From Galaxea fascicularis (lineage: Eukaryota > Cnidaria > Anthozoa > Scleractinia > Euphylliidae): a stretch of DNA of 64,000 nt. The stretch's first letter is position 1. Every line of letters begins with the position of its first letter. The stretch lies in NCBI GenBank assembly GCA_948470475.1, contig OX419338.1:9285350-9349349 (forward strand), read 5' to 3'. Positions 283 to 53,400 of this stretch are shown here, piece by piece. The notes beneath the pieces are model-generated. The model saw only the letters and a program-made list of their open reading frames with translations. It had not been told where the DNA came from and made no database searches. Both the position numbers and the translations under genes were made by a program.

Positions 283-3200
283 ATGGAGGGAACTGTGGCA
301 GGAGTAAGAATTGTTCCACCCGTAGTGGAATTTTTCGATGCTGAGTCCGACGTTGTTCATCAAATGACATTGACAGTACAGAATCTTAGCAAGACTTCAA
401 AAACCATCAGATTTCACGGTCCTGCATCGAACGTAAGTGGCTGTTATTCTGAAGAATAGAAAGATTCTATGCGTAAATGGCTCCTGGCTAGCTCCTTGAT
501 ACCTGGACACGTCTCAGAGTAAAATTTAAAGTGAACTTTAAGCTATTGTATACTGGCAACTGAGCAGAATATAAGCCTAAGTCTTAAGCTTACATAAATA
601 ATTGAATCTGCTGTTAAGATAAAGGAGATGTTGAGCTTAATTTCAGGTGAGATTGTTGTTTTGAAAAAACTGACACCCTGTTTAAGAAACTGATGTGGAA
701 CACCTTTAAATTTACGTTTTCTTCTGTTGCAGTCCTTCCGATTAAAAGTGAAAAACCCAGACCATGCTATAGCACCTGGGTTAGAGGTCTCTGGACTGGT
801 AGAATATTACACCACAAAGGCAGAGGATGCGCAGGACCGGGTTATACTTGTTGCTGACAGTGATGTGGTGGAGATTCCTCTTATAGCGTTAGTAAAAATG
901 TCAACTGATTTTATTTTTGTAAGAAACTTCACAAAATCACTGCAGTAAATGTAGCTGCTTTGTGGAGAAGGACTAGCTCTTGTCTGTTGGAGCATTAATT
1001 TTGGTCAATATTATAATATTATAGACTAGTGATTGCTTTACATAAACAGTTTCTAACACGAGTTGGCTGATCAAGGGTTATGGTCAACTCAGTTGGTGCA
1101 AGCGCGTTTTATTTTCCAGCCAAAAACCTGCAAATCCTCTTTACCTCTATGTAGTGATGTTTTCTGTTTAGAAACATTGACGTCAAATTTCTTTTGATAT
1201 TCAAATTTGCCACCCACTGAACAATAGCATGCATTGTTTCAACAGCCAATAAACCTCTGATTGGTACATAAGTAGCAATAGGTGACATAATGCAAAACAT
1301 TGTTATACAGCTGTAGGTCAGCAGGCTGAGCTTATTATTATTATTACATAGTTATATAATAACTTGTTATTGTTATTGTACATGCTTACAAGGTGTAAAT
1401 TTCCTGGTCAGTTACCCTTGGAAGCAAACAACAACAAGTTCCTAAAGGTCCTAAGGGAGTTCTCTCCTGAGTCTCTAAATGGACAAACCTTTTCACAATA
1501 GTCCAGCTGTTCCCAACAATGCTGTTTTCTGGACCACTTCAAGTTTGATGTTATTATTATAATAATAAAACAGGTTAATTCCAATAGTTTTCTGTTACCA
1601 ACTGAAGTCAGTCACCTGCAAAACATACACAGTACCATATCACTGAAGTTATTACAAAGTGTATCAAACAGTATGGACAAAAAACAAAGCCTTACATGTA
1701 CCTCTGCTGTTGTCCATCAACAGATACACTCCATCTCCCCAGTTAGAGCTGAGCGGCCCTGCAGATTTTGGTGTAACAGTGGCAGATGGTAAAGTATTAT
1801 CACAGGAAATTTTTGTCACAAATGAAGGCTCATTAACTGGAGAGTTTAAAATAAGGTACAATGGTGAGCAACCAATCACGATCATGCCTTCAGGAGGTAT
1901 TGTAAAGCCAGGAGCGAAGCAGGCTGTAAAGGTGAGTCATAGTTTAACCCTTAACATCCAATAGTGACCACCATATAACTTCTCCTTACCAGATCACTAG
2001 TTCATCAGGCATACAGGGCATGAGAAAACAGGAAATAATCACCATGGATCAGTTGCGGCGGTGCTTACACACAGCACAAATTCTCCCTACGTGTAACATG
2101 CAAAATAAGTGAGAATTGTAAGGAGAATACACTGTTGATTCATGCCTCTTACTAACCGAGTTTGAGGTCCGTACTGTAAGTTGTGGACTGAGTTTTTTCC
2201 CATTTGTTCATGGCCCAAGTGGAAAGCGTGCAGGCCATAAATCAACGGTAAAACTGAGGATCTGTAACTTACAGTACAGACCGAGAAAAGCAGGTTAGTA
2301 AGATGTTAATTATATCTCTGAGGTTAATCAGTTGTGCGGGAAAGGAAACTTTCAAATTTAGCGGGCCGTACAGTAGAGTACCAATCACAGCGCGAGTACT
2401 AACTCAGAGATATAATAAAGGGAATTAAAAACAAATGTTTTTTGCTGTAGAATGGTGAATGATTTTCAAACTCTGTGTATGCAGGGGCCTTTGCTATGAC
2501 CACCAGCTACAGTACTGTATAATAGCCATTTACCAGCTACCAATAACAGCTTTTTGTGTGTGTGCTTTATTGATAGGTTTTTGTTGTTGTCAGTGTCTAC
2601 TATAAAAATGTATTATTCACTGTTGCTTAAGTATGGATTTACTTTTTGTCTTCCTCTTGCTCCTTTGCAATATGTATGTACACTTTTGTAATGTGAGGAG
2701 GTTTGACACATTGATTGTGGTTGTGCAGTGACTGATTTTATTTATATTCAATGTAAAATCACATTGTTAATGAAGATCTCTGTTATAAATATTATGACAA
2801 TTTCATGTAATTCAGTTTTGGTACCAAGTAAGGAAGTAAGTAAAAGTCTTTTGTTGTTGCAGATTGAGTTTATCAGCAAAACACCAGGAAAGTTAAATGA
2901 AGTAGCACAGTAAGTGATGGTTTTTCTTTAAAAGTATGTAGCAAGTGATGTCTTGTGCTCAGCTTGTATAAAAAACAGGCAGTTTGATAAAAGCAATAGA
3001 CTGACTGGACTATTGATTTATTGAGAGTATGAGATTTCCTATTATTCTAATATTGAATCAGTACACATTTTCATAACTATTGCAATAGTTGTCTCAGTTT
3101 TGATGTAGTGGTCTTGAATAATCTTCTTTATGTTTCTGCTCTCGCAGAAACATAAAGAAGATTATTCGAGAAGCTGACCAATTCCTGACCAAGCTACAAT

Positions 3201-6200
3201 CCTGGCCAAAAACTTTAGGACGCTACACAAAAAAAGTCAATTGCAAGGCGGTATCTCCAACTCCCCCACATTCAATGTTGATTTCTTGCCATTTCTACTA
3301 CTACAATGATGCCAGTCGCTATCAACATTGTTAAGGTGGGGGGGGGGGGGAGTGGTTTTAAAACACAATACAACAGTGAACAATGTTTACCAGCTGATTC
3401 CTTTAGTATTCCAAATAATTTTGGCTAGGATTGTTGGCAGGAAGAACGGCTGAGCCATTCCAAACTAATATAGCCATTCTTAATTGATTCAGATGCCAAA
3501 CTTTTCATGTACTTAATTCATTGAATTTAAGGTTCAGCTCACAAAATGTATGGCATCCGAATTAGGCCTTACAATGTCTCCTTGTACTACAGTGCTAGGT
3601 ACTAACAAGAAATCAAGTTATATTAGAGGTATTTTTTGTGGATTAATGGTTATTAATTTTGACTTATTAATATTGCTTTTGTGAAGGGTTAAGCTTGAAG
3701 GTCAGCTTCCCACAACTCTTCAAATAATTGCGACTGTGGTTGAGAGATCTCTGGAACTTTTGACTCTGGAAACAGAGGAAATTGTGCAATCAATCAACTT
3801 TGGTTCAACTTACTATGGCACAGACCTTACGAAATCTTTCGTGATATATAACAATGGACCTGATATAGCGAACTTTGTAGTTATACTGGAAGAAGGCGGA
3901 GAAGGGCAGGAACTGGTATGTACCAGTATTGATCAATAATAATAAATAATATTATTACAATAATATTCCTTCGGGTTAAAGCACAGCAGTAACAATATAT
4001 ACAACACCTTTTATGCTGTTTGTTGCATTATGCTTGAAAAGTCCCTTACAGGGAGAAGAAAATTTATTAAGTAGCTGTTTGTTTGTCTTTTCTTTTACGT
4101 TACAGCTCATAATCTTAGTTTGTGATCACATTAACTAGCTGTCTAAGGCCACTTAAAGGAGAAAGCTGCATTAAGGCTTTTTTTTATTGTTTATCAATTT
4201 AACTCTTTTTCTGATCTTCAGGGTGTCGACTTGACAAAAAGTGCAACAGCGATGTTATTATCGCAAACAAATTTTCAGGATCTTGGTTCAGCCAATGACT
4301 TGACAACCCTAGTTACAGCTTTACCAAGTCAGGGAGTCCTTTACCCTCAAGAAAAAAGAGCAATTCACTTTAGGTTCAGTCCAAGATACTCCAAGTCTAA
4401 CAAGGGTTGGAAGAGCAGCGATCAACCTCCACCAAGGAAAGACTACTCTTTGTTCATGCACATAGAGACTGTGGGAAGTGTTGGTGGGATTTCTAATACA
4501 TCCAAGGGTGCAAGTGGAACTGGAGGTAAGCAACATTGTGTGTGTTCTGGTGGAAAATATTATTGAGTCAGAAAAAAAATAATGTGAAGGCCTGTGTGTC
4601 TTTAACTTTGGAGAGGAAGTATTTTGTCTACTTTGTAGAACTGTCTAAAATGCAACCATTATTAGTATATAACCGCACAAGTGAATAGTGCTTTTCGCAC
4701 GCTCTGATTGGTTAACTCGGAGGTGATTAGCAAAGTACTAGCGCACCTTTGAGCGGCCAAAGAGAAACAAAACAGCCTCCTGTTTCAGGTTGGAAGAGGA
4801 ATTATTCGAATAAACGCTAGTTATTCAGCTTGTGTGGTATATACTAAAACAATTATTATTCACCTCAGTGTCAGTGAAAGTGGTGGATATTTACCTCACT
4901 GCTTCGTGACTTGGTAAATATCCACCACTATTCACCTCCACTTTGGTGAATAATAATTATTGTTAATTTATAACCTTCACACCACTCAGTGATTTGTCAC
5001 TTGTAGGTACCTACAGTCATTGCAGTGGAAGAATGATAGTTGATACCAGTAACTGAAAAGTTGGGACTATGGACTCTTGCAGTGAAAACAAAATAATTGC
5101 ATCTTTTAAAAGAGATTGTTGTCTACACAAGTAGTGAAAAGAGTTTTGTTTCAAATTATGAAATTGGTCAAATGTGCACATCTGTATCATCTGTAAATGT
5201 GATTTTTTTTCCTTTAGTATCTTCACTGTAATTTCTGAAAGCCCTGGTGTTGTTTCATCTTTCCTAGGTTCAAGAGTTGAGGTTGCACTCCTGGGAACAG
5301 CTTTACCAGTCCTGCTATCCATCTCACCAAGTCCTGTGTTCAAGTTTGGAGACTGCCCTGTTGGCAATCAAATCGATGCACTGTGCACTGTGAACAATGA
5401 GTCTGCAAGTTTGCCCGTGACATTTTCACTGCATTCCACAGCACACTTCCACTCTTCACCTTCGCAGGAGCACATCAATCCTGGCCAGTCAGTAGATGTG
5501 TTGTTATCATTCAGACCTAATCAGATGGGCACGTTTAAGCCTGTAGTCCCACTAGAGGTCCTTGGAGGAGTTGTTGAAGATTTTTCATTTGACGGAGATC
5601 CTACTGCTATGAAGTATGTGTGAAGGAACACCGCTGGTAGCATCTTTCACCCAATACATTGGGACTTGTTGTAAGCATTGTTCTTTGTTACTTGCAGGTT
5701 GGTCCCCATATACACCACCTCAATTAACCTTCATGGCACAGGCACCAAGGAGACCAACCAGCAGAAAACACTACCACAGCCAGGCATGCCACAGATTGCC
5801 CACCCCAATGACAGAGCCACTAGCATCAGGCCTGCAAAGAGAAATGAGAATGTCAGGTATTTTTTCTTTCATGCAGTAACCTTTTAAAGCCGCAGCTACA
5901 CGAGATGGTGATGCAATTTTTTCTAAATTTGTCATGTCGCCAGCACATGGTTAAAATCACTCAAGACATGTAGCCACCTTTGCACAAAATGTTGCGATTG
6001 CAGCAGCTAAAAAATTGCGAGAAATTGAATGAGATTCAGAACTTTTCACAACAAAATGACAGACTTTGTCACTCATGTAGCCACCACTATGCGCCAGCAA
6101 CACAAGAATTACCAGAAAAAATCGCATCACCATCGCAAGCAAAAAATTGCTCGTGGAGTTGCAGGTTGTTGAAATGTCAGTCAATACTCACCTGGACGAT

Positions 6201-36300: not shown

Positions 36301-39300
36301 CTTGATGAGTACGCGCATGGTCAATGACCTCCACTGGATATACCCCATTAGGGGTATCCCCGAGTCCCTCCCCATCAAGGAGTCCCAGGCCCCTTGTATT
36401 GAGTGCAAGGCTCGAAGTCGCGTGGAAGAGCGAGTTGAAGTTACCTTGACCGGACTAGATCCCAATTCCGCGGGCTCAGGTGTGGGACGGTACCCAAGTG
36501 TTACTCCAATCAACCTGCTAGGACGCCATGTGACTGGAGAATTGGAATATGGAGTGGACTACTTGAACGTACCTGAGGAATTTAGGTGAATCATCTTTAC
36601 CAGTGAACAGGAATACATCTCATTCCTAACAATTAATGAAAGAGAATGCTCTACAGAAATTTGATGATGCAACAGACAACCACCCTAATATCAATATCCA
36701 CATTCTCCCAACTGCTCTTCCTGTGTTTCCTAACATACCAGATGGGAGAGTTTCTTAAAACATCAAGGCTTTTGATCTTTTATGATCCTGCCCTTTGTTC
36801 TTGCCACTTTTTTGTTTAAAACAACCGTCATATTGTGAAGAGATATAACATGGTGGCCTCTTTTAGGGTCAAGAGGGACAAACTTGTCGGTTGCCGCAAG
36901 ATTTTACGGAGTTTGGAGACTCGTCAGTAGCGATTTGCAACTCTTAAGGGTGTGGGACGTTAAAGAACCCACACACTGATCGGAAAGAGTAGGGGACGTA
37001 GTCCCCAGTGTGATGGTCTATAACTTATACTGTTCTGGGGGCACCTGTGTATCCTACTATTCATAATAAGATTGTAAACTGCGTGGCTGCAATTTGTGCC
37101 CATAAAAAGCAGTCCGGCAAAGTCCCCCGTTAAGTGTTGTAAAGTGCTTTGAGCCTTGGGATAAAGCGCTATATAAATCCTCATTGTTATTATTATTAGT
37201 AGGAGTAGTAGTAGTAGTAGAAATCCTGATAATATTATGAAATTTCGTTAAGCATTTATTCACTGAAGTGTTATGTGTCAGTGATATTAGAAATATATGG
37301 TTCTAAGCTGCAGTCTTTCCCTGTAGGTATGAACTGATTTACGAAGACGCAGAATCACAGTCGTGTCTTGAACGCTCCCTTGGCGTGAGTCTCTTGAGGA
37401 AGATGAAGAATCAAGTCTCTGGAGTGGTCATCTTGGTGTTTAACATTGTGTTTTCACCATTTAAACCGTTCAAGTATGTTAAAGACATATTTTGTTTACT
37501 TTTTAAAATATTTTTCATCATTTAGATTCCTTTTATTTATCGTATTATATTGCACTGATCCGATCATTTCCAGAACTTTTGGTTATGACAGCGCCCCATA
37601 TGGAGAAAAATTCGAGGAAAGAGAAAGGAGAGGTTACCCTTTCTACATTCTTGTGCATAATACCCGTCTCCTCGTGACTGAGCTTGTGTTACTTTGCGTC
37701 CACGTTTTGGTGGCTTCCGTTTGGGTGCCAATCAAAATGCTAGAGCTTCCACTCTCGCTTTGCGACGGTTGAAAACTCTACCTCCCACAGCTCTTGCCGT
37801 TTGAAAGGCCAACTCAAATGGCTTTCATCGTGTAGGCATCGGAAAGATGTGGAACAGTTATCAGTTACGAACAAAAAACAGGGAGCTTAAGTAACGAGGA
37901 TGGCAACGGCAACATGAACGCCGTAAAACAGCAGACAATCGCTCTGCTCGTGCATTTTACATTTTGATACATTTCTTTGCCGTCCTCTGCAGAACAACAA
38001 CGTGAAATGACAAAAGTTTAGGATTTCTCGAGCAAGGGAGCGCGATGGTAAACTTTTCTTTCTTTTTCCGTCAACGCTGTTTTTAGTGAATTAGTTCCTG
38101 GAGAGTTCGCCACTGTTTACAAAAGCGAGAACGCACATTTTGAAATCACATTTTCGTTGCCGTCGTCTGTATAGCAGCTACAAAGGAGATTTAATAATCA
38201 GATCTTAGGAGTTAAGGATTAACATTAAACACTGTCTTTACAATCATCTAATTTTCACTCTCAGTCACAAGACACAGCTAATGGTATCAGCAACTTCCGG
38301 TGGAGTGTGGAGATTCCCGCTTAAAGTGTTGGCTACTGAACCGGAAGTAGATGACACCATCACCATTGAATCAGTCGGACTAAACAAGGAATCAGTCGTG
38401 GGCTTCCGGATGACGAGTCAAATGAGGTTGGTGGACTGTCAGTCTTTTACATGATGTCATTATGTCACGTGATATGATGTGGTTGATGAAGATCCTATCC
38501 AGGGCCCGGTTGTTCGAAAGCCGATTGACATAATCCAGGGTTAGCGTAAACTTTGGTTGCAGTTTTTAACTATTGGATGAAAGTTGTTTTCGCTGCTTTT
38601 TCTTTTTCAGGATTAACTGTACGCACCCATGTAGTCACCCGTGTATTCATGTCGTTACCCATATAATTACCCCTCGCATCCATGAAGTTACCCATGTAGT
38701 CACCCATGTTTTCACGTAATCACCTCAAAAGACCTTCAAACACCTATATAACATAACCTATAATGGAGCATTACTAGCCTTAAAATCTGCGTTAGTGTTC
38801 CCTTTTGGTTAATTTCAACCCATTTGATGTGAATTTATTGGTGTTCGACAAGGGAAGGTAAACATATGTTTTCTTCACAGACACGCTGTTCCGTTTGAGG
38901 CTTTCTTTGCTCCAAGTTCTGACCAAGAATTCACAGTTTCCCCAGCATCCGGGGAATTGTCTCCAGCCGGTACCGAAGGGACACTTATCAGGGTCGCATA
39001 CATGCCCCAGATATACGGCAAGACTCACAAGGCTAAACTAGTTGTCCAGGTAAGAATTGTCACAAATATGAACTAATGTCGAAACCACTTTGTTTGGCAT
39101 AATAAGCATGACATTAGCTAGACGCTTTTATGTGAATGGTCGTGCTTTGGGATGCCATCCATGGAAAAAAATGGAAAAACCTTATTACCAAATAAAAACC
39201 ACGAGGACCTGATGTTCACAGGTAAGGACTCCATACGTAGGCTCAAAAGTCCACAGTCCACATACTCAAATTTAGCACAAGTTTACACATAACAAAACGT

Positions 39301-46600: not shown

Positions 46601-49600
46601 CTATCTATCTATCTATCATCGATATGTGTGGTATATAAAATTTATATACCACACATATTACCATATTTACCATTTTATTTTGTTATAAAGAAACTTACTT
46701 TTGCCATTGCCTTTTACTGTAGGTCTGGTGATATTACTAAACTGAACACTATAGCAATAGTAAACACAACAAATGAGTCTCTTAGTAACAGAGGAGTAGT
46801 GAGTGAGAAGATTCACAATGCTGCTGGCCCAGAGCTGTTGCATGAATGCAAAACACAACTTCTTGGTAAGGTGTTTGTAAACTTATAAAGAAATGGGTGT
46901 CCAGAAAACTAAGACCTATGACCTAGAAAACGGCGACATTGAAAACGATGACCCGTACAGTAAACAAACAATTTACAACAATTTTCCCTTACCTTTCCAC
47001 CAAATGACACAACAAGGTGGAACAAAAATTGTAAAAAATTGTGTAGGACACAATGTTGGCTTCTGAGCCAATATTACAGAAACAACAGTAGGTCATCGGA
47101 CATTGTCTGACCAAATTTTTAAAATGTCCAGTTGATTTCACTTTATCATCGGACATCATGTCCGAACATGAAGGCCAAACAAATTTAAATACAGTTTTCA
47201 AACTTCCATATCGAATTACATTATGCAAATTAATGCTCGGTCAAATTGGTAAAATTTTCGACCAAAAGGAAGATTTCAAATGACAAATTGCCTGTTGGGG
47301 AAGAAAAATTATTTCCAGCTCTACTATTATGATTTGAACTGTGGTGGCTTTTGATCCTTGGAGTTTGTGTTTCCTCATAGGTCGGCTATCTAGCTTTCAT
47401 TAAATACATGTAACAGATATTTTCGGCAAAAACATTACCAGAATCTCGGTGAAACATGAGGAGAAAAATATTCAGCTTCTGAACTGTTTGCAAATACGTT
47501 ACCTGAAAAGGAAACAGCACAGTAAAAACAAGAGTAAGGTTTCTGCAGCCAGTTCTATAGCTTACATTAAATAATTATATACATGAGGTATGTTCAAGTT
47601 CACACTGCAACCAGGTGGACAATCAGACATGGTTTGATGCTACTCTGGTTTGAAGTTTGATGAATGTAACTTAAAAAGTTACAATTCACGACCCAACGTT
47701 TCGACACTCCTGTCTAGTGTCTTCATCAGGGGTGATCTAGTGTTGCAAAAAGGAGCCTTTTATACGCTTACTAATTAACGACCTTTTGTTTTGATGAGGT
47801 GTAAATAGGTGTCAGGTAAAAGGCCGCCATCGTCACGGTTTAAAGGAGCGTGGGCGGAGTTGATGTGCCAAGCTTCCAAACAAAGCCGTTGATGGTACCG
47901 CCGGTTAGTGGTGATAATTTTGGAATTATCCCACGCTATTGTATGGTTGGTTTGGCAAGCATGTTCCGACAAAGCGGAATTTTCCTTTTTGCAAAGAAAA
48001 ACTGCTTTTTGATGCTCTTTTAAACGCGTGCCAAGCTGACGCTTGGTCTGTCCGATGTACTCATGATCACAGTCATTGCATGGAATAGAATAAACAGCGT
48101 CAGTTCGTTGTTCTTTCAACACAGGATCCTTAGGTTTGGCAAAAATATGACTCATTATTATTTTGTAGTTTATCACACATCATGTAAATTAAGAAAAGTA
48201 TTGCGTGACAACAAGTGAATCCCATCCCTTTCTCAGTTAAACTGCAATTCAATTTAACTTCTGTTCAACTTTTAATTAACACTTCTATCACTCTTCAAAG
48301 TACTTGGTCTATCAAAAAGTTGCAAAATAATATTACTAGCACTAGAACGGAATTTTGTAGGTCATAGGTCTTAGTTTTCTAATTTAGACACCTAAGAGAA
48401 ATTTGTGAAAATGTTCTGATTCCATATGCTGTTTATCACTCCATTTGCGACAAGCAGTGAGAAAATCTGTCCAAAGTCTTAACCAAATAATGTCTCAATC
48501 TCGTTGTTCAGTGGATAAGTGACGGGGACAATAATTGAGGAGGGCAGAAATTTGTTGTTAATTGTTCTTTTGTAGTACTATTCTCAATATGAATTGTAAT
48601 GCCAATCTTAATGGTAGTTTGCTCTTCATAGGATGCAGAACTGGTGAAGCTAAAATATCAAAAGGCTACAGTCTGCCTGCCAGGTAATAGACTTTTAATG
48701 TGTGCATAGTTGCCACAGGTCAGGAAATGGTCAGGGAAAAGTCAGGGAATTTCACTCCGAGTCAGGAAAAATTTAAGTCTTTGAGAGAAGTCAGGGAAAA
48801 GTCAAATTTTAAGGGTACTAATTTATTTATTGCCAACTGAGCAATGTTTTTGTGTAAACAAGAATGCGAGCTGTCAACATCAGTTGACAGCTTGCATTCT
48901 GTGAGGGGAGGTTGGAGGCCATTACCAGACCTTATTTGTGAATTGTTTTAAATTTAGTTGGTCAGGGAAACTTTGGATTTGTCATGGAAAAGTCAGGGAA
49001 TTTCAAAATCCTGTGGCTGTGGCAACCATGGTGTGGTTTTCTGCTGACTGAGGAACAAATGAAGTGAAAACTTTTTTCTCACACACAGCTGGGAGTATGG
49101 GTTTGAGTGTGCAGGCGGTCTTCAGGTCACATGATTTTGAAAGTTCAATTTGTTTGTTGCCATCTGCCATTGCCTGACCTGCCCCACCCACCCACCCTTC
49201 ATGTATTCTCATTTGAGGTATTGCCATAGTTCCAGTGTTATTGTACATGAATCAGGTCTAGTTGCATTGTGGCTCTTGTGACCTGTAACATTAGTGATCT
49301 GGGCTCGGTTGTTCGAAAGGCGATTAACCTAATCCAGGATTAGCGTAAACTTTGGTCGCAGTTTTTAACTTTTGTTTTTCAGGATTGACTTCCCCTAATC
49401 TAAAATTTTGCAGAATATCAGCATTGGGGATAGAGAAATAACTTCCTTGATTAACTTTTATTCTTGGATTAGCGTTAATCGGCTTTCGAACAACCGGGCC
49501 CTGTGGTGTTGATATTAAAGGTCAGGCTGCATGGTTCACTTGGCATGGCGCCCAGTTGAGTGTGAGAAGTTTTATTTTTTGCATAGCTTTGTAGCCTGCA

Positions 49601-50440
49601 GTGCAGGCGTATTTTGGGTGGGCGAAAGCTTGTTAATCGGATGGCTACGATGAAGCCGCCATCTTTGATTCTATGTCAGAGGAAGATTGGGGAGAGTAGA
49701 AATAGTAACCCTTACGGTAGGTGTGAGGGCAAAAAAAGAAGAGGGGGGAGGGGGAGGGGAGGAAAAAATACGCCTGCCCGATAACATTGTTCTTTTGCGA
49801 AATGCCGTACGCTGGCAAACGGTGCTCCTGATGGGTGCGGCTTGGGGGAGTAGATTGATGCCTGTCAATCAACTGTAAGTTTATATTGTTTATTCCGTTT
49901 TCGTTTGCACGCAACCGAAATTCGAATTTTAACTCTGCTCTCGAGGAAGTCTTTTGGAATTGGAGCGGCTTGGAATGTCGCGTGTTTTACGCACTGAACA
50001 AGTCAAATCGATTTCTACACTGTCATCAGGAGAGGATTTCATAGTGCTGCCTACTGGATTTGGAAAAAGCCTGATTTTTCAGCTTCTCGTTCGAGTGGTT
50101 GAATGTTTAACTGGGAAGGCCTCGTGCGTTTTGGTCGTTTGTCCTCTTAAAAGTATAATCCAGGACCAGTTGGCAGAAGCCACTTCGCTAGGTTTGAAAG
50201 CAGTCGCTCTTGGAAACTTTAAATTTTAAACAGAAATTCTAGCAAAGCCGTCTCGAAACCTACAGTTTGGAAACGCTACATTGATGATGTCTTTTCCCTG
50301 TGGGACATAAGCAAACCGGACATAGAGACTTTCATCGAACAAGCAAATTTACATCACCCTACAATTAAATTCACGGCAGAAATATCTGACACTGAAACTG
50401 TGTTTCTAGACACAATAGTATACAAAGGCACGCGATTCAA

Positions 50441-50481
<41 letters not shown>

Positions 50482-53400
50482 AGAGACCTTCCAATATACA
50501 CATTTCACCTCTTGTCACCCGCCAAGCGTAAAAAACGGATTCGTCAAAGGTGAGGCCTTACGAATCCTTAGAACAAACTCCTCAAAGGACACTTTCGAGG
50601 AAAACATTTCGAAATTTAAAAAAACGTTTACGGGACAGAGGTTACCTACGCAATTTGGTAGAAAAACTACTATCAGAAATCAAATTCACAAGGAGGGGCT
50701 CAGTGCTTGAAGGAAATAACAAAACACGTAAAGACATTTTACCATTTGTGACACAATACCAGCCATCAGTGTCAACCACCTATCATTTCGTACAAAAAAG
50801 GACAATCCTTAAAAGATCTGCTTGTGAGAGCAAAACTATAAAAGGTTGTTTACATGTTTTCACACAGGAAGGGAATTAGTGTGGCCTGTCATACCTTGCG
50901 TTTCTTATCTTCCGGAAGAGTGGCCAAGCGCGACTAATTAGGGGGTGTTTATCATTTTGACAGTGTTTTCGGGCAGGCGTTTTCTCTTCTTTCTCCCCGC
51001 CCCCTCCCCCTTCCCCTTGACTCGCCCCATTTCCTCCTCTCTTCGGGAGTTTCAACATGGCGCTTTAGCGATTAAAACCATTCGCGCGCGCCCGATGAAA
51101 ACGCCTGCACTGCAGGCTACATAGCTTTGTAGTGTAGATTTTTATTCAATTTTTGTTTGCTTAATTTATAGATATGTCATCCATACTGTGGGGCCACGGT
51201 ACAACATAAAGTATAAGACAGCTGCAGAGAGTGCTCTGTACTCATCTTACAGGAATGTTATGAAGATTGCAAGGTGTGTTACAAAGTAAACAAAAATAAT
51301 GTCAATATGGGATGTTCTTTCCATACATGCCATTTAAGACTAAACAAATCTGGTTTCACACTCTGTCCAGCCGCAACTTGTAATTTGCACCGAGAAGCTA
51401 TTTCTGAAGCTACGAATTTTCCTAAAAGGGCTACAAAAACTTCAATAGATTTTGAAAAAATCTACAAGTGTAACCTCATTATTAACCAAGATAGAGGTCA
51501 TAACATGGAAATCTCAGACTGAGGCCTTGAGTGATAGTGAGGTCCATACCAAGGCCGTACTGTCATTGCCATATAGTAATGTTGTTTAATATCACATGTT
51601 TCTTATAGGGAACACAGAATAGCATCAGTTGGTCTTTGTGTGATAAACACATCAAGACGAGGGTACCCCCCTGAGGATGGTGCTCACATTGCTTTGCGTA
51701 AGTGATTTGTGGTTTACCTTACACATACCAGATTGAAAATCTCACGCATTTGACTCAGAAATAGTTGGCAGGTATATGATTTTAAAACTTTGATTTAAAA
51801 GAATATTTCAGCTTTTTTCTGGTGCAGTATATGAAAAATCTGGCTTATTTTTAATGTGATGGAAGAACTGTTTTAAGACAGATTTCAGTCGAACACTTGC
51901 TGACAGTCACTGATTTCATCTTACATGTAGTTTAACTTTCAACCAAAGCTTTTTTTTCTCTTATTATTTTGAGGTTCAAAAAATTAATCGTTTCCTCGTA
52001 ATCTGTTATTGAGATCCTCAAAAATATTCTTTGGGTATCTCGAAACTCAATACTTGAAACTCGAACCTTGAACTGCAAGACTTGATTCTTGATAAGTTCT
52101 AGGATTGAGTTTGGAGTTAAGACTGTCAGCTTACTTTTGATTGGTACTGTAGTGTAATATATATCCACTGAAGGCAGGAATTCACCACACCACCAGTGGT
52201 GGTTAGCTCACATTGATTTAGCACTTCTTGTTTCTCTAGCTTTTCCCTCCAAGACCCTTGGCTAAGGTTGTACAAAAAGAGAAGTTTTCAAAACATGTGA
52301 GAACCAACAAAGGGTTTTTTAAAAACCTTTTTTTGTAAGAATGTGCACATGTCAGAGCTGTTTGATGACAGCAAAGTTTTTCTTCTCTGAAAAGGAATTC
52401 ATTTGATATTTTAGATTATTCATTAAAGTAACATTCAAGTTTCAAGTTAATCATTTAGCACTATACTAATGACAATTTTTGTTTTACTCAAAATTACACA
52501 TTTGCTTACATCTAAGGAAAAAGACAACAGCACAACAAAATTACATGTACACAGCTAGGGTAAATTTAATTCAAGTGCTTTTACTTTCTACTGACAGGAA
52601 CTGTTAGACGATTTCTTGAAAAGTTTTCAGATGTTGACCTAGTTGTATTTGTTGTGGAAAATGCTGATGAGGTAAGGGTGTTGAGAATTTTTTTCAGTCG
52701 GGTCAGAACATAACAAAAACGTTGTTCTACAAATGCATATAACTTCATTTTAAATTTTCCTTCCATAGGCCATATACAAGAAAGTGATGCCACTTTATTT
52801 TCCCAGAAACAAGGAAGAGGAAGATTTTGTACTTAATGAACTTCCTGATGATATTGGTACAGTGAATGGTGTTATATTTTTTAGCTTCAGGTTGCAAGTC
52901 TGCATGTGTGCTGTAAAACTGGCACACAGTGAATACGCTACACTCACAAATAACTTAAATAAATTATTTTAGTTAGAGTGACAAATTATGTACAAGGTTA
53001 AAAAGTATCAAAAAAGGAAAAAGTAAAAACAGAATTTTTTGGATACTAGGTCATCTTCAGGGTTGTAAATACACTGTATTTTGTCATTTTAAATCTTAGT
53101 GAATATTGTGGACATGAGTTACATGGAGCTGAGTATTACTCTGTTACAAAATAAAGTTGCTTAATTGCTAAATGACAAGGCTTGGTCAACTTTTTTCCTT
53201 GCTTCCAAATGTTGTGTCATTCAAGCCATCAGTGAATCAAACCTGTCTTTTGCTCTTATTTTAGGAAATGAGAGTGGTGAGCCAGTGATTGCCGAGAGAC
53301 AGATTAGGATAATGGATAAGCCAATTGGGCATAGAGATGATGATGGTAAGTGGTGCTGTTTTTCTAGTTAGAGTACTATCTATCTCAAGGTCAGAGTTTT

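Follow-up and report, generated by a model that had tools for sequence, protein, structure and literature searches.

A mobile DNA transposon of the coral Galaxea fascicularis that joins a RecQ-like helicase fragment to a Penelope-like reverse-transcriptase fragment

The 64,000-nucleotide stretch of Galaxea fascicularis DNA analyzed here (contig OX419338.1, positions 9,285,350 to 9,349,349; hereafter the window) contains, at positions 49592–51119, a 1,528-bp element in which a RecQ-like helicase fragment and a Penelope-like reverse-transcriptase fragment are joined between one pair of terminal inverted repeats (TIRs). This helicase/Penelope chimera has transposed as a single unit, and in it two transposon classes with no relation to each other have clearly been fused and now move together. 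We interpret the window unit as a cut-and-paste transposon of AcademH type that is non-autonomous, carries retroelement cargo and moves with it as one, a reading to which we assign a probability of about 80%. An earlier note on this DNA, made from the letters alone, had described a YIDD reverse transcriptase of the Penelope group on the strand of the helicase; the enzyme and the strand are borne out by matches to RVT_1, the only family that the analysis itself returned, and the group name Penelope is one that we adopt from the note and from general resemblance.

The earlier note had proposed that a junction repeated at many loci, each with its own flanking duplication, would indicate a mobile chimera, and a junction present solely at the window locus a local insertion. 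When we searched the genome (416.6 Mb in 170 contigs) with a probe across the junction (50150–50320), it matched 27 places, 21 of which span the junction, with three further matches on the Penelope side and three on the helicase side; 18 of the spanning matches cover all 171 bases, and the others begin at query base 3, 6 or 22. Among 25 stretches inspected, L029 proved to be a chimera into which another insertion has come and separated the two sides, which accounts for one Penelope-side and one helicase-side match and brings the chimeras to 22 places on 8 contigs. Exact target duplications, all different, flank 19 of the 22 (16 of 9 bp and three of 10 bp), where L020 was called by the outer of two left ends and L024 after its end was adjusted, its right TIR being without nine inner bp as judged by eye; L052 carries a nested insertion, with the duplication still present. 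The 400-bp flanks of the 19 duplicated copies gave no match among themselves at E 1e-10. Because the same fused unit stands at 22 places and has duplications of its own at 19 of them, the chimera jumped as one piece, as the note had anticipated for a mobilized composite. Probes for the two sides gave concordant inventories: the helicase part matched 29 places, of which 24 are full-length or nearly so (the 22 chimeras, L032 and L045), and the right end matched 40, of which 21 begin in the Penelope end, the fragment L050 being the single one that is not a chimera.

Mean divergence is 2.9% among the 18 copies that could be aligned along their length. L015 and L016 differ at two aligned positions, gaps included, but each is flanked by a duplication of its own; the same holds for the window copy and L027, which group as sisters (support 100/99). 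The alignment has 102 columns that are gapped solely in these two sisters and in none of the other 16 aligned copies. They include a 74-bp internal deletion near 50773 in the Penelope-like part. The sisters also share a 39-column gap near 49915, just upstream of the helicase fragment, that deletes a start region which other copies have. Since the sisters share their deletions yet lie between unlike duplications, it is the deleted form that has moved. That copies so alike occupy different sites suggests that movement was recent, and hence that the host has a source of transposase.

The ends of the element (TAGCC...GGCTA) were set by comparing 19 copies, which shifted by one base on each side the limits of 49591 and 51120 originally proposed. 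The TIRs, TAGCCTGCAGTGCAGGCGT at 49592–49610 (+ strand) and its partner at 51101–51119 (− strand), are 19 bp long and perfect; at up to three mismatches the TIR core has four matches within the window, a number equalled in 0 of 100 shuffles, and a search with the TIR pattern gave no match in viral_contigs or in genome_contigs, the latter a prokaryote collection. Subterminal inverted copies of the core lie at 49765–49777 on the − strand (AAAATACGCCTGC, inverted repeat I6) and at 50973–50984 on the + strand (GCAGGCGTTTTC, inverted repeat I8). The target duplication of the window copy, CATAGCTTTG, is 10 bp and exact (49582–49591 and 51120–51129, both read on the + strand). The G at 49591 and the C at 51120, which the earlier note had allowed as a possible twentieth TIR pair, are part of this duplication; counting them into the TIR had led to a duplication of 8 bp, a length that we reject because the copies compared show 9–10 bp. 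A 13-bp direct repeat at the element ends takes in the first TAG of the TIR. Apart from the cargo, 838 bp of element DNA are kept in the window unit: on the left, a non-coding stretch followed by the helicase fragment, and on the right, a 211-bp end (50909–51119, + strand) that starts with CTTCCGGAAGAG (native: CTTACTTCCGGAAGAG) and matches the native right ends of L042, L043 and L045.

The helicase 5′ fragment (49933–50218, + strand; motif I, TGFGKS) matched DEAD in Pfam (E 8e-8), recQ_fam in NCBIfam (E 3e-12; below the whole-protein cut-off, as expected because the sequence is a fragment) and RecQ, BLM and RECQ1 in the PDB (E about 1e-7), which upholds its designation as RecQ-like. Identity to native relatives stops at 50218, with L032 and L033/L045 matching through GGAAACT; in L033/L045 the helicase sequence runs on beyond the junction point. 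The few relatives of the helicase that carry an organism name come from the corals Orbicella, Montipora, Paramuricea and Dendronephthya. By eye, three public proteins (P0001, P0004 and P0121) join this helicase part to this right end without Penelope sequence, at three breakpoints that differ from the one in the window. YIDD was not found among the 120 matches listed of 149 helicase-relative hits, nor, by eye, in five from a further search.

Clear Penelope homology begins at 50228, so that the join, rightly placed near 50225 by the note, comprises nine bases (50219–50227, + strand) that all 18 aligned copies have; this sequence, TTAAATTTT, may be filler or may be Penelope sequence that has diverged, L030 having TAAAATTG for comparison. 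The 5′-truncated Penelope-like fragment (50228–50908, + strand) runs from just before YIDD to a stop at RAKL, continues as 3′ untranslated sequence, and finishes with CTTGCGTTTCTTAT at 50895–50908. Its identity to proteins with RVT_1 reaches 88%, and its reading frames are broken. With the RVT_1 profile, the protein P0128 and one L030 open reading frame (ORF) scored above the cut-off, and P0127 just below it. Canonical Penelope-like elements are described as having a GIY-YIG endonuclease (PMC11167929). We found no GIY-YIG match in four of the 12 ORFs listed for the degraded locus L030, nor in P0127 and P0128, and because of this and of the reverse-transcriptase frame ending at RAKL, we do not file the cargo as a canonical Penelope member. 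Elsewhere in the window, an ORF at 47775–48179 on the − strand matches GIY-YIG weakly (E 0.0026, below the cut-off) and probably derives from another Penelope-like copy.

A RecQ-like helicase together with 9–10-bp duplications points to the AcademH lineage, which is described as duplicating 9 or 10 bp of target, against 3 or 4 bp for AcademX (PMC10045372), and from which helicases in fungal genomes are reported to derive (PMC10799480). Duplications of 9 or 10 bp were found at 19 of the 22 chimeras and at L032, L045 and L047–L049, and the RecQ-like fragment represents the helicase gene of the lineage. The original AcademH paper is reportedly Kojima 2020. Mutator elements also make 9-bp duplications and are in that respect compatible, but the RecQ-like helicase makes AcademH the better fit; KolobokH, which targets TTAA, does not fit.

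The search for an autonomous relative, which the note had advised, was partly successful. L045, of which the outer parts were read, is a relative 6,402 bp long that shares the TIRs and is flanked by a 9-bp duplication; relative to it, about 5.5 kb of element sequence is missing from the window unit, and because of this absence the chimera cannot be explained simply by insertion into a helicase that was otherwise whole. L042 combines a native right end with a 516-amino-acid, transposase-like ORF on the opposite strand that contains CxxC pairs and matches the genome at 85 places or more, with 83 of 367 candidates scored. From position 3208 of L042 onward, the native right end adjoins an ORF that, by eye, resembles a mariner-like transposase. 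L057, a distant match to the 516-residue ORF (34% identity), bears a DEAD-helicase fragment on the opposite strand that overlaps the long ORF; since L057 has both, the pairing of helicase and transposase-like genes recurs. At the other extreme are three miniature inverted-repeat transposable elements, the internally deleted L047, L048 and L049 (241, 232 and 213 bp), which have the same ends and 9-bp duplications as the window unit but no cargo.

The cargo subfamily was also found outside the chimeras. At ≥90% identity, the Penelope probe identified at least 29 loci, the 22 chimeras and seven others (L030, L031, L032 and L058–L061); these counts are lower bounds, with 40 of 134 candidates scored and shorter 3′ fragments lying outside the probe, so that 22 of 29 is the share of loci found. 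The DNA transposon thus holds 22 of the 29 subfamily loci found, and a 23rd, L032, in another arrangement. Because most loci found sit in a DNA transposon, copy number alone would mislead as to the retroelement's own activity. Five of the six subfamily loci outside the element (L030 and L058–L061) end at the same 3′ terminus as the cargo, some with one extra T, and have unrelated flanks; in L031, the forward copy departs from the others a few bases before this terminus. L058–L061 are 5′-truncated, and L030 and L031 additionally hold inverted partial copies: at 812–3756 of L030, a Penelope-like insertion has an inverted truncated arm that is 99.8% identical over 492 bp, with both 3′ ends outward, and at 2093–3989 of L031, a Penelope-like pair lies within long inverted flanks, as though inserted at a foldback centre.

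From these comparisons, the cargo looks like a 5′-truncated retrotransposition copy at native CTTAC/TTCCGG, and the left joint resembles that of an internal deletion. On this account, an AcademH element would have received a reverse transcript of Penelope-like RNA, begun at the 3′ end of the RNA, which left a 5′-truncated copy joined to the element's right end; together with the insertion or afterwards, the element would have lost about 5.5 kb, comprising the remaining helicase and a presumed transposase gene, and the 9 bp of junction sequence would have come to link what was left of the helicase to the shortened Penelope sequence. Given that neither enzyme gene is complete, the ends would be acted on by a transposase encoded at another locus, neither internal enzyme fragment would contribute, and the Penelope part would be passive cargo. 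Of the two origins that the note had left side by side, we favor Penelope insertion followed by joint movement over capture by template switching, because the end point of the cargo is that of other members of the subfamily.

Several observations weigh against parts of this account. Three of the 22 chimeras are without a duplication: L051, whose left end is damaged, and L013 and L029, for which the right-end probe of the genome found no right end. The 516-residue ORF, like the other transposase-like ORFs compared, matched no transposase family in Pfam or NCBIfam and is at most a candidate Academ transposase; a piece further along the same strand matched DUF6589 at E 0.0039, below the curated cut-off. 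DUF6589 is a mark of Academ transposases; it was absent from the papers listed in a literature search on DUF6589 or Academ. A Penelope-free precursor with these exact breakpoints was not found among the loci compared, and the 9-bp junction, together with the lack, by eye, of a duplication around the Penelope piece, is atypical of a clean insertion. Shared sites are also divided: in the left part, 10 group L032 with the chimeras and 12 group the chimeras with L045, and in the Penelope part, two group L032 with the chimeras and five group the chimeras with outside copies.

L032 bears on how such an insertion might have occurred. At 2203–3663 it contains the same DNA transposon, with a 9-bp duplication and two inverted Penelope-like pieces, and is a second, different chimera. 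Its inverted Penelope 3′ end follows directly after ACATCTCA of the helicase, 20 bp past the window-type breakpoint, and its right joint lies, by eye, within about 5 bp of that of the chimeras; these joints hint at a shared origin. A special case of the insertion account would have Penelope reverse transcriptase priming on both broken ends of an AcademH element, with L032, in which Penelope sequence is inverted beside the helicase, and the window type, in which it runs forward beside the right end, as two products of one event. Besides the proximity of the joints, the nearly identical inverted arm of L030 is consistent with such twin priming, as is the mean distance of Penelope parts to the chimeras (14 of the 18 aligned copies compared), which is smaller for L032 (3.2%) than for L030 (4.5%) or L031 (5.2%), and in vitro cleavage and extension of both strands is reported for a Penelope-like protein (PMC11167929). 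A two-armed copy was not found, and the shared-site counts do not group L032 with the chimeras (10 versus 12; 2 versus 5); we consider this special case unlikely. Similarly tentative is the notion that an AcademH element broke while transposing and that a Penelope-like reverse transcriptase repaired it by using the broken ends as primers, the patched element then out-multiplying its parent; if this were true, a DNA transposon would carry most of the copies found of a retroelement subfamily.

Alternatively, break repair in an AcademH element could have copied a genomic Penelope stretch by template switching, after which the chimera was amplified. One event would then explain both the gain of cargo and the internal deletion, and the breakpoints have some of the expected features, with an overlap of CTTA at the right joint and the 9-bp junction sequence at the left (by eye); gap filling in the Pack-TIR elements of animals is described as leaving microhomology or insertions at breakpoints (PMC8277862). 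The captured piece stops, however, at the Penelope 3′ terminus, as do five of the six outside loci, and copied DNA has no reason to stop there, which makes this origin rather improbable. Segmental duplication, or one local insertion, in place of transposition can be dismissed for the 19 copies whose duplications differ and whose flanks are unrelated; no point among the chimeras speaks for it, its one instance being the shared left flank of L043 and L044. These two loci, about 107 kb apart, hold another internally deleted derivative of about 1.9 kb and are likely one segmental duplication.

Compared with known systems, the window unit resembles AcademH elements in its RecQ-like helicase gene, TIRs, 9–10-bp duplications and 6.4-kb relative with the same ends, and differs in being without most of the helicase, without a transposase gene and with a Penelope-like fragment. 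Pack-TIR elements of animals, for which gap filling and FoSTeST are described, likewise hold foreign sequence between TIR ends and are multiplied by transposition (PMC8277862); they capture gene sequence from outside transposable elements, whereas the cargo here is a repeated retroelement, a fragment with its own 3′ terminus that likely arrived by retrotransposition. With Penelope-like elements the cargo shares a YIDD reverse transcriptase, documented by its RVT_1 relatives, as well as 5′-truncated copies, a common 3′ end and, at L030, an inverted arm, but it is moved by a DNA transposon. In a limited literature search, mostly at abstract level, we found no published report of such a chimera. 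Just upstream of the element, at 49301–49501, the window contains a foldback repeat of about 200 bp, part of which (49301–49374) is copied at 38502–38575 with 91% identity.

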